A stretch of DNA of 64,000 nucleotides from NCBI GenBank assembly GCA_022826685.1, contig JAJDUL010000061.1:62001-126000 (forward strand), written 5' to 3'. Every line of letters begins with the position of its first letter. Position 1 is the stretch's first letter. Of the stretch, positions 17,686-57,110 are shown one piece after another. Source of the DNA: Gemmatimonadota bacterium (GTDB lineage: Bacteria > Gemmatimonadota > Gemmatimonadetes > Palauibacterales > Palauibacteraceae). The notes beneath the pieces are model-generated. The model worked only from the letters and a program-made list of their open reading frames with translations, was not told where the DNA came from and did not search any database. A program made the position numbers and the translations under genes.

Positions 17686-17756
17686 GGGTTCGACTCCTTC
17701 GGGTCTGAGGGCGCCCGCGTCCCGCGACGCGAGGACGCCACCGGCGTCGGGCGAAC

Positions 17757-17853
17757 GACCCCAGGCGGGCCGTGGCGACCGTCACACGCTTACCGCTGCT
17801 ACCTTCACGGTCCTGACGGGATTTACGCGCTCCGGCCCCACGGGCCTGGGGCA
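17757..17853 (-). ncRNA. ffs: Small (4.5S-type) signal recognition particle RNA
   Basis: On the minus strand this roughly 97-nt segment carries the SRP RNA helix-8 signature: GTCAGGACCGTGAAGG, AGCAGCGGTAAG, the conserved internal-loop and apical sequence bound by the Ffh M domain. The ends pair: CCCCAGGC at the 5' side (17851-17844) with GCCTGGGG at the 3' side (17766-17759), giving the expected single long hairpin. There is no Alu domain, so it is the small bacterial type. It sits between yraN and dnaX; an ffs next to dnaX is a recurrent bacterial arrangement. Exact ends are estimated from the terminal helix. A TAAGAT element about a dozen bases upstream could be the -10. Confidence 0.9.
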
Positions 17854-51766: not shown

Positions 51767-52269
51767 CCGTTCACCTCCCTCCGCTGACGCCGCCCGCCTC
51801 GGCGAGCCTCCGCGAGTTCGAGGGCCCGGGCCACCGCCTCCGCCGCGTCGCCAGCGGTCTCATCGACGAGGCCCTCCGGCAGCGACGTCGCGAGGCCGAT
51901 CACGGGGATGCCGAACTTCCGGCAGAAGGCCGCCTCGCTGAGGGTGCCCCACTCGCCGGCGATCGCGATCACGGCTTCCGACGCGCGCGCGACGATGACG
52001 TTGCGCGCCTCGCCCAGGCCGGTCGGGATCGGAATCGTGACGCCCTGCGCCGCCGCGCCGGGATCGCCGCCGGGCAGAATCCCCACCACGGTCCCGCCTT
52101 CCGAGGAAGCGCCGTCCGCCGCCGCCCGCATGACGCCGCCCATCCCACCGCAGACGACGATGGCCCCTGCGCGGGCGACGGCCGCTCCCACGGCGTGGGC
52201 CAGGCCGGCCTCCGACGGCGCCGCCTCCCCCGAGCCGATGACCCCGATCCGCAGCGGACGCACTCTCAC
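51763..52269 (-). CDS. TIGR00725/LOG-like Rossmann protein
   Basis: A 168-residue protein of the TIGR00725 family, related to lysine-decarboxylase-like LOG proteins. It shows [40 protein letters not shown] and [30 protein letters not shown], the nucleotide-binding GGxxGxM and GTxxE-type motifs. Relatives bind or hydrolyse nucleotide-linked substrates (LOG releases cytokinin bases from their ribotides), but this branch is uncharacterised. The start is GTG 52269, overlapping the dtd stop as GTGA. Confidence 0.8.
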
Positions 52270-52700
52270 CGCTCCAGCAGGAGGGTCACGGGACCGTCGT
52301 TCGTCAGTTCCACTTCCATCATCGCCCCGAATTCCCCTTCCGCGACCTCGCCGCGCGCCCGGCACAGCTCGACGAAGCGGTCGTAGAGCGCGCTCGCGGC
52401 CTCCGGTCGCGCGGCTCCGGTGAAGGAGGGACGCCGGCCCCGCGACGCGTCGCCGTACAGCGTGAACTGGGACACGATGAGGAGCGTCCCGCCGACGTCG
52501 TGGGCGGAGCGGTTCATGCGGCCCTCCTCGTCCGCGAACACCCTCAGGCCCCAGAGCTTGTCCGCCATCCAGGTCATCTGCGCCTCGGTGTCGTCCGCCG
52601 CGAATCCCACGAGCACGACCAGTCCGAGGCCGATCGCCCCGACGACCTCGCCTCCGACCCTCACACGGGCCTCGCTGACTCGTTGAATCACGACTCGCAA
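52266..52700 (-). CDS. dtd: D-aminoacyl-tRNA deacylase
   Basis: A 144-residue Dtd that hydrolyses D-aminoacyl-tRNA and glycyl-tRNA(Ala). The core [20 protein letters not shown], the SQF motif in [20 protein letters not shown], and the Gly-cisPro-type motif region [16 protein letters not shown] are present. The start codon is TTG 52700-52698 (LRVVIQRV); the frame is open far upstream, but into sequence without coding character. Having it near alaS fits its role of clearing mischarged Gly-tRNA(Ala) (inference). Confidence 0.92.
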
Positions 52701-52889
52701 TTGCGTCGTCCCGTCCTCAACCCCGGCGGTCCGTGGCAGGCCGGTTTTCCACAGCACGCTAAAGGCGGTGAACCACGAGAAGATGCGACAGCCTTGGCTC
52801 CCGAGCGACTCCCGACGCCGCGCACCCGCTCCCGCGCGGGACAATCCACGGTTTTTGGACAGAATATGGACATGATTTGAACGTCGTTT

Positions 52890-52903
52890 TTTTTGAAAAA
52901 AAT
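52890..52903. repeat. Left copy of 14-bp inverted repeat
   Basis: TTTTTGAAAAAAAT here is the exact inverse complement of ATTTTTTTCAAAAA at 53500-53513. It is centred in an AT-rich island inside GC-rich sequence. A wider 31-bp window (52883-52913) also matches 53495-53525 directly at 23 of 31 positions, because the motif is nearly palindromic. The homopolymer content lowers the significance. Confidence 0.5.
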
Positions 52904-53114: not shown

Positions 53115-53144
53115 ACGTATAAAGACGTGCAAACCGAAGTAGAT

Positions 53145-53443
53145 GTACTCAGCCCCTGGCCACCCGAAGGTGTCAGGGGCTGAGCAAGGAAGCTTGTTTA
53201 CGGCCAACTACCGCCGGGTCCTGGTAGCTTGCGCGGTCTTCCAGAACCTCGCCGCGAGCCTGGTACCGTCTGCCCAACCAGCTGCGCTCGACCCCTCTTC
53301 CTTCGGTCGCTTCGTTCCGTCGCCGGAACTCCGCTCCCTCCGGCCCGGGACTTCCGCCCCGGTTTCGCGATCTCGCGTCGGGCAACTCGCGGTGCGGTCA
53401 TCGGCCTCGACCTCCGGTCGGTCGGTGCCGCCTCCCTTAGCAC
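53145..53443 (-). ncRNA. Candidate structured RNA with several perfect hairpins
   Basis: Downstream of a leftward promoter, the minus-strand sequence can form many local stems. Examples are CGACC-GGA-GGTCG near the 5' end, CGCG-AGAT-CGCG, GTTCCG-GCGA-CGGAAC (53329-53314) with a GNRA loop, and CTACC/GGTAG. The last is a long hairpin at 53182-53148 in which TCAGCCCCTG pairs with CAGGGGCTGA and the apical CACC-TTCG-GGTG carries a UUCG loop. No Rfam family is recognised by eye: it lacks tmRNA, RNase P, 6S and SRP signatures. The 3' limit is set at the last strong hairpin. The 5' end is inferred from the promoter. Confidence 0.45.
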
Positions 53444-53449
53444 GCCCTG

Positions 53450-53478
53450 ATTCTAAAAAGATTTTTTTGGGTCGTCAA
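53450..53478 (-). promoter_or_regulatory. Near-consensus sigma-70 promoter
   Basis: Reading leftward: TTGACG (-35, plus 53473-53478), a 17-base AT-rich spacer (53456-53472), and TAGAAT (-10, plus 53450-53455). Transcription would begin near 53443, inside the gene-free region. The dtd start is more than 700 bases downstream, so a dedicated RNA product is at least as likely as a long leader. Confidence 0.65.
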
Positions 53479-53499: not shown

Positions 53500-53513
53500 A
53501 TTTTTTTCAAAAA
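53500..53513. repeat. Right copy of 14-bp inverted repeat
   Basis: ATTTTTTTCAAAAA, exact inverse complement of 52890-52903. The two copies bound a 624-bp segment (52890-53513) that contains the promoter, the hairpin-rich segment and the G-run cluster. No flanking target-site duplication is evident. Confidence 0.5.
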
Positions 53514-53584
53514 TCTGTTGACCGGATGGCCATTTCCCGTAACGATTCGCGAGTGAAAATCGGATTTTGGCCCGCGTCCCTGGG

Positions 53585-55621
53585 TCAACGGCCGTGCCAG
53601 AGATCGGCGGGGGCGGCGTCGATTCGGGTGCCGGATTGCTCGACGTGGGCGATGAGACGGTTCAGGAGGGCCTCGCGGGGGAGGGTCCGCCGCAGGCCGG
53701 CGACCGTCGCGACGATGACGAGACGCTCGCGCGCCCGCGAAAGGGCGACGTTGAGCAGCCGGGGGAAGTCCCGGTTCCGCCGCTCGTCGAGGAACCAGCT
53801 GCGGCCGGGGGGCGCGTCCACCGTGTCGATGATGACGAGGCGCTTCTCCCTTCCCTGGAAGCGGTGGATCGTACTCACCTCGAGGTTGGCGGGCGCGGCG
53901 CGGCCCAGCCGGCGCCGGACGAGGTCGCTCAGGTGGCGGGTCTGGGCGCGGTAGGGCGAGACCACGGCGATGTCGCCGATCCCTCCGCTGGCGGCCGCGC
54001 CCACGAAGTCCGCCACGGCCTCGGCGTGCGTGCGGTTCCGGCGCGAGCCGTCCACGCGTTCGACCCTCGGATCGAGACCGCTCGTGTCGAGGACCGTCAC
54101 GGGGCCGGCAGTGGCGCCGCCGGCGGCAGCGGGACGAGCGACGTGGCCGGTCCCCTCCGCCGCGCGCTCGGCGATCTCCGGCGCGTCCCTCAGCCGTCCG
54201 CCGTAGAAGAACTCGCTCACCAGTTCGCGGATGTCGGGCGCCATCCGGTACTGGAGATCGAGCATCGCGCACAGCCCGTCGTTGGGGGACGGCAGCGACG
54301 GCTCCGAGGGCAGCGAAGGCAGCGAGGACGCCTCGTCCACCACGCCGGCTTCCCGGAACAGGTCCGTCCGCAGCCACCGCACCGCGGCGGGGGCCGTGCT
54401 CGACACGACGGGAGGAAGCTGCTGGAAGTCGCCGACGGCGATCGCGGGGCCCGCGACCCTCGAGGCGGCGAGCGCCACATACGGGAGCGGCGCCGTGCTC
54501 GCCTCGTCGATGAGGAGGGATTCGAACCTCAGTTCGCGGAGTTCCTCCCGGATCGAGAGCCGGGCGAAGGTCGTGAGGACGATGTCCGCCTCCTCCAGCG
54601 CGCGTTCCGCCTGGCGCGCGATCTCGAGCATGGCGCGGCCCAGGCTGCGGGCGGACTCCGCATCATTGCGCGAGCGGGCGAGCGCGAGCAGGCGTCCGGC
54701 GCGGGCGTAGGGACTCAGGACCGGAGCCTCCCCGCGCCCCCCGGCCGGCGGACGAGCCCCGAGCCGGCCCTCGTGCTCCGCGAGCGTCCGGTCCACGCCC
54801 CCGGCGCCCCCCTCGATCCGCCGCGCGAGCACCGCCCCCAGGTCGATGCGCGTATCCGGCGCAGCACCGAGATCGAACCCCACGCGGATGATCCGGTCGC
54901 GGTCGAGCATGGCCGGGTCGGCCACCGAAGCGAGGCGGCGCGCGATCTCGTCCACCGCTCCGTTCGTCGTCGCCGCGACGAGCACGCGTCCGCGAACCGA
55001 GAGTTCCAGCGCCGCGCGCGCCACGAGGCGGGACTTGCCGGTCCCCGGCGGACCCCAGACCAGCTGCGCGCTGCTCCCCAGCACCCGCTCCAGGGCGTCG
55101 CGCTGCGGCTCGTTCAGGTCCTCGGACGACTCGAGCCGCGCAGGCTCCCGGCCGAGGCTCGGGGGCCGCCGGCCGAAGGCCCCGAGCACGGTGTCCGGGA
55201 AGAAGTCCTCCGGATCCCGACCCACCTCGGCCAGCCGCTGGGAGAGTTCGCGCAGGAGCCACGTGGGATCGAACTCGAGTTCGGCGCCGTCCAGACGTTC
55301 GCCGAGCCACTCCGGGCTCACGGCCTGGAGGAGTCCGAGCGTGCGGTCGAAACGGTGGACCGTCCCGAGCGCCTCCCGCCCGCCGGCGTGGATGCGCACG
55401 CGGTCGTCCGCGCGGATGTCGTATGTTCCCCCCGCGATCTGGAAGGTGTAGCGATGGCCGGTCCCCGCCTCTCCCCGCAGGCGTCCGGAGAGCGCCGGGA
55501 TCGGCCGGTCCAGACGGCGGCGGGAGAGGTCGGCCGCGACCGCCTCGATCTCCTCCTCGATCGCGACCCGAAGATCCGCCAACAGAAGCCACAACGACTC
55601 CAGCGAGTCAGGAGCTTGCAT
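53585..55621 (-). CDS. SF1 DNA/RNA helicase (UPF1/IGHMBP2-like)
   Basis: A 678-residue superfamily 1B helicase. An N-terminal beta-barrel region (YTFQIAGGTYDIRADDRVRI) precedes the motor: Q/I motif LNEPQRDALERVLGSSAQLV, Walker A WGPPGTGKSRLVA, Ia AATTNGAVDEIA, II LLIDEASTAPLP, III VGDFQQLPPVV, Y-R segment LDLQYRMAPDI, V VSTIHRFQGREKRLVIIDTV and VI LNVALSRARERLVIVA. This is the AAA_11/AAA_12 architecture of UPF1-like helicases; bacterial members are little studied. The start at 55619-55621 shares CATG with the oppositely oriented decarboxylase start. The gene precedes the 884-bp gene-free region. Confidence 0.88.
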   Translation of the reverse strand: MQAPDSLESLWLLLADLRVAIEEEIEAVAADLSRRRLDRPIPALSGRLRGEAGTGHRYTFQIAGGTYDIRADDRVRIHAGGREALGTVHRFDRTLGLLQAVSPEWLGERLDGAELEFDPTWLLRELSQRLAEVGRDPEDFFPDTVLGAFGRRPPSLGREPARLESSEDLNEPQRDALERVLGSSAQLVWGPPGTGKSRLVARAALELSVRGRVLVAATTNGAVDEIARRLASVADPAMLDRDRIIRVGFDLGAAPDTRIDLGAVLARRIEGGAGGVDRTLAEHEGRLGARPPAGGRGEAPVLSPYARAGRLLALARSRNDAESARSLGRAMLEIARQAERALEEADIVLTTFARLSIREELRELRFESLLIDEASTAPLPYVALAASRVAGPAIAVGDFQQLPPVVSSTAPAAVRWLRTDLFREAGVVDEASSLPSLPSEPSLPSPNDGLCAMLDLQYRMAPDIRELVSEFFYGGRLRDAPEIAERAAEGTGHVARPAAAGGATAGPVTVLDTSGLDPRVERVDGSRRNRTHAEAVADFVGAAASGGIGDIAVVSPYRAQTRHLSDLVRRRLGRAAPANLEVSTIHRFQGREKRLVIIDTVDAPPGRSWFLDERRNRDFPRLLNVALSRARERLVIVATVAGLRRTLPREALLNRLIAHVEQSGTRIDAAPADLWHGR

Positions 55622-57110
55622 GCCGGACCCTATCGATCGACCGCACGGCGAGCCCGCCCGCGAAGCCGCCGACGCCGCCACCGCCCAGGACTGGAGCGGG
55701 GACACACTGCGCGAGGCGCTCGACCGCGCGGCGGAATGGACCGTCGACTACCGGAAGCGCGTCGAGGAACGGCCCGTCCTCCCCGACGTCCAACCCGGCG
55801 ACGTCCGCCGCGCCCTCGCGAAGGCCCCGCCGCGCGCCCCGGAACCCTTCGAGCGCGTGCTCGCCGACTTCGACGAGCACATCGTCTCCGGTCTCACGCA
55901 TTGGAATCATCCGGGCTTCCTCGCCTATTTTTCGAGTTCCACGCGGGCACCGAGCATCGTGGCGGAACTCCTCGTCGCCGCCGTCGGGGTGAACGCAATG
56001 TTGTGGCGAACCTCTCCCGCCGCGACCGAAGTCGAGCGGACCGCCGTCGACTGGCTGCGGCAGGCCGTCGGCCTCCCCGACACCTTCTCCGGGCTCATCT
56101 TCGACACCGCGTCAACCTCCACCTTTACCGCCCTCCTCGCGGCCCGGGAGCGCGCGGGCGAGGGCGTGCGGGACGACGGGCTCCCCGGAGGCCCCCCACT
56201 CGCCGTCTACACCTCCGAGCAATCCCACTCCTCGGTGGAGAAGTCCGCCATCGCCGCCGGACTCGGCCGCAGCTCCGTCCGCCGCATCGAGACGGACGCC
56301 GCCTTCCGCATGCGCCCGGACGCGCTCGAGGCGGCCATCGCCGACGACCTCGCGAGAGGGATCCGGCCCGCCATGGTGTGCGCGACGATCGGCACGACCT
56401 CCACGGCGAGCGTCGACCCCGTCCCCGCCCTCGCGGCCGTCGCCGAACGGCACGGCGTCTGGCTGCACGTGGACGCCGCTTACGCGGGCCCCGCAGCGAT
56501 GATCCCGGAGCAGCGGCCCCACTTCCGCGGGTGGGAGGCGGCCGACTCCATCGTCCTCAACCCCCACAAGTGGCTCGGGACCTCGCTCGACTGTTCGGTG
56601 CTCCTGTACCGCGACGTCGCCCCCTTCCGGGCCTCGCTCGCGCTCACGCCGACCTACCTCGAATCGGAGGACGACGAGACCGACCTCATGGACATCGGCC
56701 TCGCCCTCGGCCGCCGCTTCCGCGGGCTCAAGCTGTGGGTGCTCTTCCGGTGCGCGGGAACGGACGGCCTGGCCGAGACGATGCGCCGGCACATCGCGAT
56801 GACCGAATCCGCCGCGGGCCGCCTCGTCGAGGGCGGCGCCTTCGAACTCGCCGCTCCCGTCTCCTTCAGCACCGTCTGCTTCCGCGCCCCGCTGGAGGGC
56901 GACCAGGCGGGCGAGGCGCGGCTGAACCGCGAGATCATCGCGCGGGTCAACGCCGGGGGACGCTCGTTTCTCTCGCACACGGAACTGGACGGACGTTATA
57001 CTGTACGGTTGTCCGTCGGGAGCGTTCACACGGAAGAGCGCCACCTGGACGACGCGCTCGAGGCGCTCCATCGGGCCGCAGCCGACCTTTCACCGGGAGA
57101 ACCGGGTTGA
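55620..57110 (+). CDS. PLP-dependent group II decarboxylase
   Basis: A 496-residue aromatic-amino-acid/glutamate decarboxylase-like enzyme. It has HWNHPGFLAYFSSSTRAPSI, GLIFDTASTSTFTALLAARE, the PLP-stacking SEQSHSSVEKSAIAAGLG, HVDAAYAGPAAM (Asp binding the pyridine nitrogen) and NPHKWLGTSLDCS with the Schiff-base Lys. The C-terminal substrate domain is complete (TYTVRLSVGS-type ending near RYTVRLSVG). The HWNHPGF and HKWL patterns are closest to aromatic-L-amino-acid decarboxylases; substrate is not decided. ATG 55620 has AGGAG upstream. Its stop overlaps the DsbA-like start as TTGA. Confidence 0.9.
   Translation: MPDPIDRPHGEPAREAADAATAQDWSGDTLREALDRAAEWTVDYRKRVEERPVLPDVQPGDVRRALAKAPPRAPEPFERVLADFDEHIVSGLTHWNHPGFLAYFSSSTRAPSIVAELLVAAVGVNAMLWRTSPAATEVERTAVDWLRQAVGLPDTFSGLIFDTASTSTFTALLAARERAGEGVRDDGLPGGPPLAVYTSEQSHSSVEKSAIAAGLGRSSVRRIETDAAFRMRPDALEAAIADDLARGIRPAMVCATIGTTSTASVDPVPALAAVAERHGVWLHVDAAYAGPAAMIPEQRPHFRGWEAADSIVLNPHKWLGTSLDCSVLLYRDVAPFRASLALTPTYLESEDDETDLMDIGLALGRRFRGLKLWVLFRCAGTDGLAETMRRHIAMTESAAGRLVEGGAFELAAPVSFSTVCFRAPLEGDQAGEARLNREIIARVNAGGRSFLSHTELDGRYTVRLSVGSVHTEERHLDDALEALHRAAADLSPGEPG

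Follow-up and report, generated by a model that had tools for sequence, protein, structure and literature searches.

The 64,000-nt stretch of DNA analysed here (the window), from a relative of Candidatus Palauibacter (Gemmatimonadota), almost certainly carries a stand-alone structured RNA gene, which specifies a noncoding RNA of 303 nt on the minus strand (53142-53444) and belongs, as far as these tools show, to a new RNA family. Downstream of it lies a helically phased array of sites that resemble DnaA boxes. For most copies, RNA and array occur side by side, at two loci that are unrelated to each other, and we consider it likely that together they form one functional unit. This unit would be a DnaA-control locus resembling E. 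coli datA; taken as a whole, this explanation, with a stand-alone RNA gene and an array of that kind, has in our judgment about an even chance of being right. We class the combination of RNA and array as a new form of a layout already known. A sequence-only reading had placed a candidate novel structured RNA with its own promoter at 53145-53478. The RNA does lie there, although comparison of copies sets it at 53142-53444, 3 nt longer at the 3' end, and the candidate has held up: compensatory changes are abundant, no reading frame is conserved, and Rfam contains no family that fits. Beyond that reading, the analysis turned up a DNA element linked to the RNA on its downstream side (52744-52902), a further copy of the RNA in one genus, and a pseudoknot.

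Read leftward, the order at the locus is a helicase-like gene, an A-tract palindrome, the promoter, the RNA, a spacer, a second A-tract palindrome, the array, a further box and dtd. The upstream neighbor encodes a helicase-like AAA_11/AAA_12 protein (53585-55705, minus strand; Pfam). The downstream neighbor, dtd (D-Tyr-tRNA deacylase; 52266-52700, minus strand; Pfam PF02580, E 8.2e-59), has a start codon, picked by eye, about 440 nt past the RNA. Covariance model R2 matches the RNA with 193.9 bits (E 7.3e-46), the source alignment of R2 already containing the window copy. Four DNA elements are given without strand, namely the upstream palindrome ATTTTTGAAAAAAAT (53500-53514), the downstream palindrome TTTTTTTCAAAAAAA (52888-52902), the array of three DnaA-box-like sites in 11-bp steps (GTCCA, GTCCA, GTGGA; 52842-52882), and the extra box TGTGGAAAA between array and dtd (52744-52754). 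The A-tracts at 53500-53513 and 52890-52903 also form a perfect 14-nt inverted repeat that flanks the RNA unit, 596 nt apart; with arms that are each near-palindromic, this may mean nothing.

The promoter described by the sequence-only reading, TTGACG-17-TAGAAT, is present at 53478-53450 on the minus strand, 5 nt before the first conserved base of the RNA, and is the sole sigma-70-like match in the 2 kb scanned, where 0.1 would be expected. When the promoter of each copy was taken as the best in a scan of 28-60 nt upstream, the best -35/-10 pair lay 4-5 nt before a conserved CGUGC (UGUGC in one copy) in 33 of 33 copies. Of these pairs, 29 agreed with the consensus at 9 or more of 12 bases, and the four weakest (8 bases) were L115 and three second-locus copies. 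From these sequences we infer that the RNA gene is transcribed from a sigma-70-type promoter of its own. At the other end, conservation stops directly after GGGGCUGAG-UACAUC, in which the conserved tail UACAUC (53142-53147) lacks a U-run and follows the UUCG-capped, terminator-like 3' hairpin P9 (53148-53184), the long UUCG hairpin of the earlier reading. That reading had also seen a strong final hairpin; strong it is, with a folding z of -5.66 for the last 59 nt of the RNA, but it has no U-run here and a terminator scan of the window locus did not flag it. The relative L115 has a U-run, GAGTTTTTC, 3' of the same hairpin.

The distribution of the RNA was determined with blastn in 60 genomes, with covariance model R1 in 66 genomes and with R2 in 395 genomes of the phylum. 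With blastn, 15 of the 17 same-genus genomes were matched (13 at 92-100% identity, 2 at 71-75%), and two other genera gave matches to a conserved segment of about 50 nt on the 3' side. In the window's family, R1 recovered 33 full copies from 27 of 35 genomes, with two copies in each of six genomes of genus g6, and no full match in the 31 genomes outside the family. R2 matched 22 of its 395 genomes, all within the family. Both model runs used the stricter filters of Infernal and considered 30 (R1) and 5 (R2) candidate places per genome, settings with which diverged relatives may be missed. As far as searched, the RNA family is thus confined to the family of Candidatus Palauibacter. Its copies are 249-308 nt long and comprise 31 distinct sequences.

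Several weaker matches were set aside. In total 28 of the 66 genomes were matched by R1, 27 of them at full length; the 28th, G040 from another family (model positions 2-38, E 0.006), was dropped as seemingly protein-coding sequence. Five of 26 contig stretches, labelled as other phyla, were dropped as chance matches: two re-scored at 15-17 bits and the others at less, and those two owed their score mainly to hairpin plus tail and lacked the GGAGG loop of the 5' side. In L072 (6306-6343) and L084 (1012-1045), labelled Rokuibacteriota and Planctomycetales, a similar hairpin is followed by a tail TACATC or TGCATC with the rest of the RNA missing, a likeness that is probably due to chance. The hairpin pattern had no match in viral contigs. 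A truncated second copy in G015 was excluded from the count of 33; it consists of the promoter and approximately the first 130 nt (L036 1001-1500, G015:C48), and stands before a putative signal-peptide gene (assigned by eye), as if captured as a promoter.

Eight genomes of the family gave no full match (G012, G013, G018, G019, G020, G022, G023 and G027). In four of these, G013, G018, G022 and G023, the helicase gene and dtd (recognised by eye) are adjacent without the RNA, and R1 run with filters off at this place gave no credible match. In G019 the promoter and the first bases of the RNA lie at a contig end, and in G020 the contig stops just after the helicase gene. No dtd was seen by eye in the stretch examined of G012, and no helicase match reached the cut-off in G027. 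Since some relatives lack the unit, the family as a whole does not need it.

The genes next to the RNA bear on the possibility that it is a cis-acting leader, i.e. a riboswitch or attenuator acting on the following gene, with termination at the 3' hairpin. The RNA does lie on the same strand as dtd and ends in a terminator-like hairpin, yet the dtd start is far off, at the ~440 nt given above, and the gene that follows is not constant. Copies of four genera lie between the helicase gene and dtd, but in the fifth genus (L116) the RNA precedes a gene unlike dtd. Second copies in g6, where examined, have genes for an M1 peptidase and a JAB-domain protein close by (by Pfam for one such locus), and the second-locus copy considered in this respect stands before the JAB-domain gene. 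As different copies are followed by different genes, a riboswitch for dtd was rejected; the RNA is not the 5' leader of one conserved gene, and we consider a leader of any kind improbable. For comparison with the guide RNAs of mobile elements (omega RNAs), the Pfam assignments of neighbors at two loci are a helicase, dtd, a SLOG protein, an M1 peptidase and a JAB-domain protein. Two second-locus copies (L021 and L031) share, some 320-450 nt past the RNA, a stretch (GTCCCGCCTGTACGCCCAACCG...) that looks alike by eye and is possibly a leader of the next gene.

We then considered the fold of the RNA. The segment 53145-53443 has a folding energy of -152.8 kcal/mol (z = -4.70 versus dinucleotide shuffles); the isolated core of the relative L096 folds no better than its shuffles (z -0.51). 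The predicted structure (all positions on the minus strand) begins with the 5' hairpin P1 (53425-53443), whose loop AAGGGAGG (53431-53438) is the 5' strand of the pseudoknot, and the covarying hairpin P2 (53408-53424). A central stem follows (53254-53390), made up of P4 (53386-53390 with 53254-53258) and P5 (53378-53384 with 53271-53277). It shows strong covariation and contains, within P5, a stretch of about 50 nt that is restricted to the window's genus. Its tip hairpin (53345-53362) is capped by the GNRA loop GGAA, as the sequence-only reading had noticed, and a bulge of the stem holds the self-complementary sequence GGUACC (53262-53267). Hairpin P7 (53218-53247) has a conserved GCGC in its loop, and the 3' strand of the pseudoknot, CUUCCUUG (53185-53192), lies just before P9.

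Comparative support for this structure was assessed with two alignments. Alignment A2 (31 sequences) was fitted by the model to the structure; A1 (19 sequences, MAFFT) was unfitted, yet its structure string was taken from one member (L016). In A2, 91.3% of cells pair and 40 of 69 pairs show changes on both sides, with a covariation score of 0.352; shuffling gave 0.192, and none of 500 shuffles reached the observed score. Relatedness alone can lift sequences above a shuffle control of this kind in the absence of structure, and slid structures are the better control: sliding the A2 structure by 1-3 columns reduced the score to 0.060-0.096. In A1, 89.7% of cells pair, both-side changes occur in 31 of 70 pairs, and the score is 0.332 versus 0.204 shuffled; the count of further pair types in A1 was not above shuffles (217 of 500 as high). 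Compensatory base changes, whose absence from homologues would have counted against the RNA according to the earlier reading, are abundant on both alignments. Helices P1, P2, P4, P5, P7 and P9 pair in 94-100% of the A2 cells, P1 with 0 pairs changed on both sides, and weaker pairing was found in P3b (79%), P6 (67%) and P3a (61%). Only the g6 copies, 12 of the 31 sequences, have letters in the helix numbered 10.

In the pseudoknot, a GGAGG-like purine run in the P1 loop pairs with a pyrimidine run just 5' of the 3' hairpin. At least 5 continuous pairs can form in 28 of the 31 distinct copies, and 4 pairs in L018-L020. In L021 and L022 both strands are changed together relative to the rest (AAGGAGAA with UUCUCUU). 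Shuffling single copies gave p values of 0.014 or less in 13 of the 31 copies and larger values in the others, among them 0.35 in L115 and about 0.7 in the three copies limited to 4 pairs. These comparisons describe an RNA with a branched core, a predicted pseudoknot between the 5' hairpin loop and the 3' linker, and a terminator-like hairpin at its end. The covariation shows the fold itself to be under selection, so that the RNA probably has a function of its own besides any effect of its transcription.

The same data weigh on whether the locus could be an artefact, either a chance fold of GC-rich sequence or an unrecognised protein gene. The GC content is high, and mechanical ORFs do overlap the RNA, one of 81 aa on the RNA strand and one of 137 aa antisense; a 313-aa ORF, an upstream extension of dtd, reaches the RNA 3' end. 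The sequence-only reading, which had found no protein signal, was nevertheless right in substance, in that no frame is open across the copies. One antisense frame is open over almost the whole RNA in 14 of 15 same-genus copies, which we read as reflecting close relationship and high GC in the window's genus. Against an artefact stand the covariation above controls in both alignments, the longest stop-free runs on the RNA strand, which go down to 34, 27 and 33 codons for the three frames in other genera, and copy lengths that differ by non-multiples of three. The search for a conserved protein frame, which the earlier reading had named as a way to overturn its proposal, found none across the copies. 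The covariation largely refutes this explanation, and we find it scarcely credible.

The RNA was also compared with known bacterial RNAs. The earlier reading had recognised no signatures of tmRNA, RNase P RNA, 6S RNA or SRP RNA, and the searches agree: ARAGORN found no tmRNA in the window, and Rfam gave no match to the RNA at E up to 10, nor to seven relatives at E up to 1. The one weak Rfam match at E up to 10, to a human family on the plus strand (E 0.94), falls in the downstream spacer, outside the RNA. 6S RNA is likewise a stand-alone bacterial RNA, made of one long hairpin with a central bubble that mimics an open promoter. In contrast, the RNA described here is branched and has a pseudoknot, with P4/P5 and P7 as separate arms by covariation. 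The 6S model (RF00013) matched neither the locus nor the window's genome, and matched only 5 of 14 control genomes. RNase P RNA is similar in size and in its long-range pairing; its model (RF00010) did not match at the locus, and the window's genome has a separate full RNase P RNA at G000:C44. SRP RNA (RF00169) was not matched at the locus either. The window does have a small SRP RNA gene elsewhere, at 17756-17851 on the minus strand (47.4 bits). With OLE, ROOL and GOLLD the RNA shares the property of being a large structured bacterial RNA, but it has no Rfam match, is shorter than these and differs in architecture.

We next describe the DNA element linked to the RNA. Within 420 nt downstream of the copies there are 140 occurrences of GTGGA or GTCCA, versus 28.4 in local shuffles, and every copy is followed by at least two. 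Boxes exactly 11 bp apart form 50 pairs versus 0.03 expected, with 26 pairs at 22 bp and 9 at 33 bp. An exact 11-bp pair was found in 26 of 33 copies, including the second locus, and 7 of 33 are without one. In reading these counts it should be kept in mind that many copies are close relatives and hence not independent, although five genera and both loci carry the element. A pair resembling TTATCCAC-GTGGATTG (three mismatches allowed) occurs in 23 of 33 copies. Many boxes of the window's genus are of a degenerate form, with GTCCA in place of GTGGA.

The coupling of this element to the RNA has to be weighed against the explanation that the RNA acts independently in trans, as a protein-binding or scaffold RNA and possibly as a GGUACC dimer, the array serving some other regulator and being merely co-duplicated. 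An A-tract palindrome (one mismatch allowed) lies downstream of 32 of 33 copies, at two unrelated loci, which speaks against independence. The strict element T5-A5-TGTGGA does so as well: it is present in 16 of 60 genomes and always lies just after an RNA copy, except at G034:C73, where it ends 140 nt from the contig end; a reversed control had 0 matches in the 60 genomes. It is absent from the window's genome, where the boxes are degenerate. TTWTCCMC-GTGGATTG was found in 5 of the 16 genomes tried, and 8 of its 9 places are RNA loci, the ninth being G034:C73. On the other side, spacing is loose, with the A-tract 38-263 nt past the RNA, and the spacer between RNA and array is conserved neither in length nor, by eye, in sequence. 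GGUACC, moreover, is exact in 30 of 33 copies (GGUGCC in L096, GGGACCC in L115, absent in L116). In OLE and GOLLD, symmetric contacts are made by kissing loops with palindromic sequence (PMC12286853), and GGUACC is suggestive of such contacts; a dimer contact at this sequence is speculative. We regard a purely trans-acting RNA as possible but doubtful.

With respect to what binds the array, the boxes downstream of the RNA resemble the DnaA 9-mer TTATCCACA (PMC8203912), and this likeness tips us slightly toward the view that the sites are bound by DnaA. E. coli datA is located after the glyV-X-Y tRNA operon, and IHF binding at datA falls when transcription reads through from this operon (PMC10950094). 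As at the datA locus described there, a noncoding RNA gene that has a promoter of its own is closely followed at the present locus by an intergenic cluster of sites, here DnaA-box-like; that is, the locus shows the datA-type layout of a DnaA-box cluster downstream of a noncoding RNA gene, as a resemblance of sequence only. It differs in that the RNA is a large structured RNA and not a tRNA, in the 11-bp phasing of the boxes, and in its other neighbor genes.

It is possible that the unit works like datA. The similar layout, with a structured RNA replacing the tRNAs, leads us to propose, as the likeliest mechanism, that the array would hold DnaA, and that transcription of the RNA gene, ended or let through at the 3' hairpin, would set the state of the array. 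The folded RNA would then be a stable product, probably also acting in trans with a protein. By analogy with datA, such control by transcription is a tentative suggestion that we consider rather unlikely in itself. Less probable still is an RNA-coupled counterpart of datA in which the folded RNA itself would target the DnaA complex, either on the array or at the origin, as a replication-control module found in this family only.

A cluster of this kind could alternatively be a chromosomal replication origin or a replicon relic, with the RNA as primer or copy-control RNA. An intergenic A-tract with several DnaA-box-like sites would suit an origin. The dnaA stretches (3.5 kb) of five genomes have no three-box cluster, and elsewhere in the 752 kb sampled from G026 there is at most one box per 300 nt, a count that sees just one of the two RNA loci of this genome. 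However, one genus has two copies per genome, four relatives that share the flanking genes have none, and dnaA is not adjacent to the unit in G026, where it lies more than 230 kb from either copy. In one genome (L133) two boxes do lie between dnaA and the next gene. GC skew, sampled over 752 kb of the 2.96 Mb in the single-contig genome G026 (37 stretches of 20 kb plus one of 12 kb), has no clear switch; because it largely follows gene orientation, it is uninformative and gives no answer on oriC. Plasmid and phage collections contained no sequence similar to the unit. We hold an origin or replicon relic to be very improbable and retain the DnaA-control locus as the favored explanation.

A literature search on RNAs beside DnaA boxes or in Gemmatimonadota returned no report of this RNA. 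The part of PMC11109978 that was available contains no word beginning with gemmatimon, and the available part of PMC10469786 has nothing for noncoding-RNA terms. For the phylum, a search that mostly fell short of full texts showed no dedicated structured-RNA study. For Gemmatimonadota, the present work contributes a structured RNA family that is well supported, has a promoter and occurs in a second copy in one genus. Its repeated association with DnaA-box-like sites in a helically phased array provides an unusually concrete hypothesis for this RNA. It would become testable whether the coupling of a stable-RNA gene to a DnaA-binding cluster, as known from E. coli datA, arose independently in other bacteria.

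Paired boxes of this type also occur away from the RNA. The exact pair TGTGGA-n5-TGTGGA was found at 18 places in 17 of 45 genomes (7 matches for the reversed control, which gives this pattern a chance level), 2 of the 18 being RNA loci and 11 being one shared sequence at a non-RNA site in 11 genomes of the window's genus. At the three such non-RNA loci examined, the pair is intergenic and accompanied by further boxes, and at L182, the only locus tested in this respect, the gene after it encodes a B12-dependent ribonucleotide reductase. In E. coli, DnaA binds boxes that precede nrdAB (PMC8203912), a parallel that speaks indirectly for DnaA at the sites described here. The exact pair of the window's genome sits at a reductase-type place of this kind and not at the RNA. 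In L182 (1478-1730), the TGTGGA boxes before the reductase gene lie near a CCACAACATATGGTGT motif, which we take to be NrdR-like.
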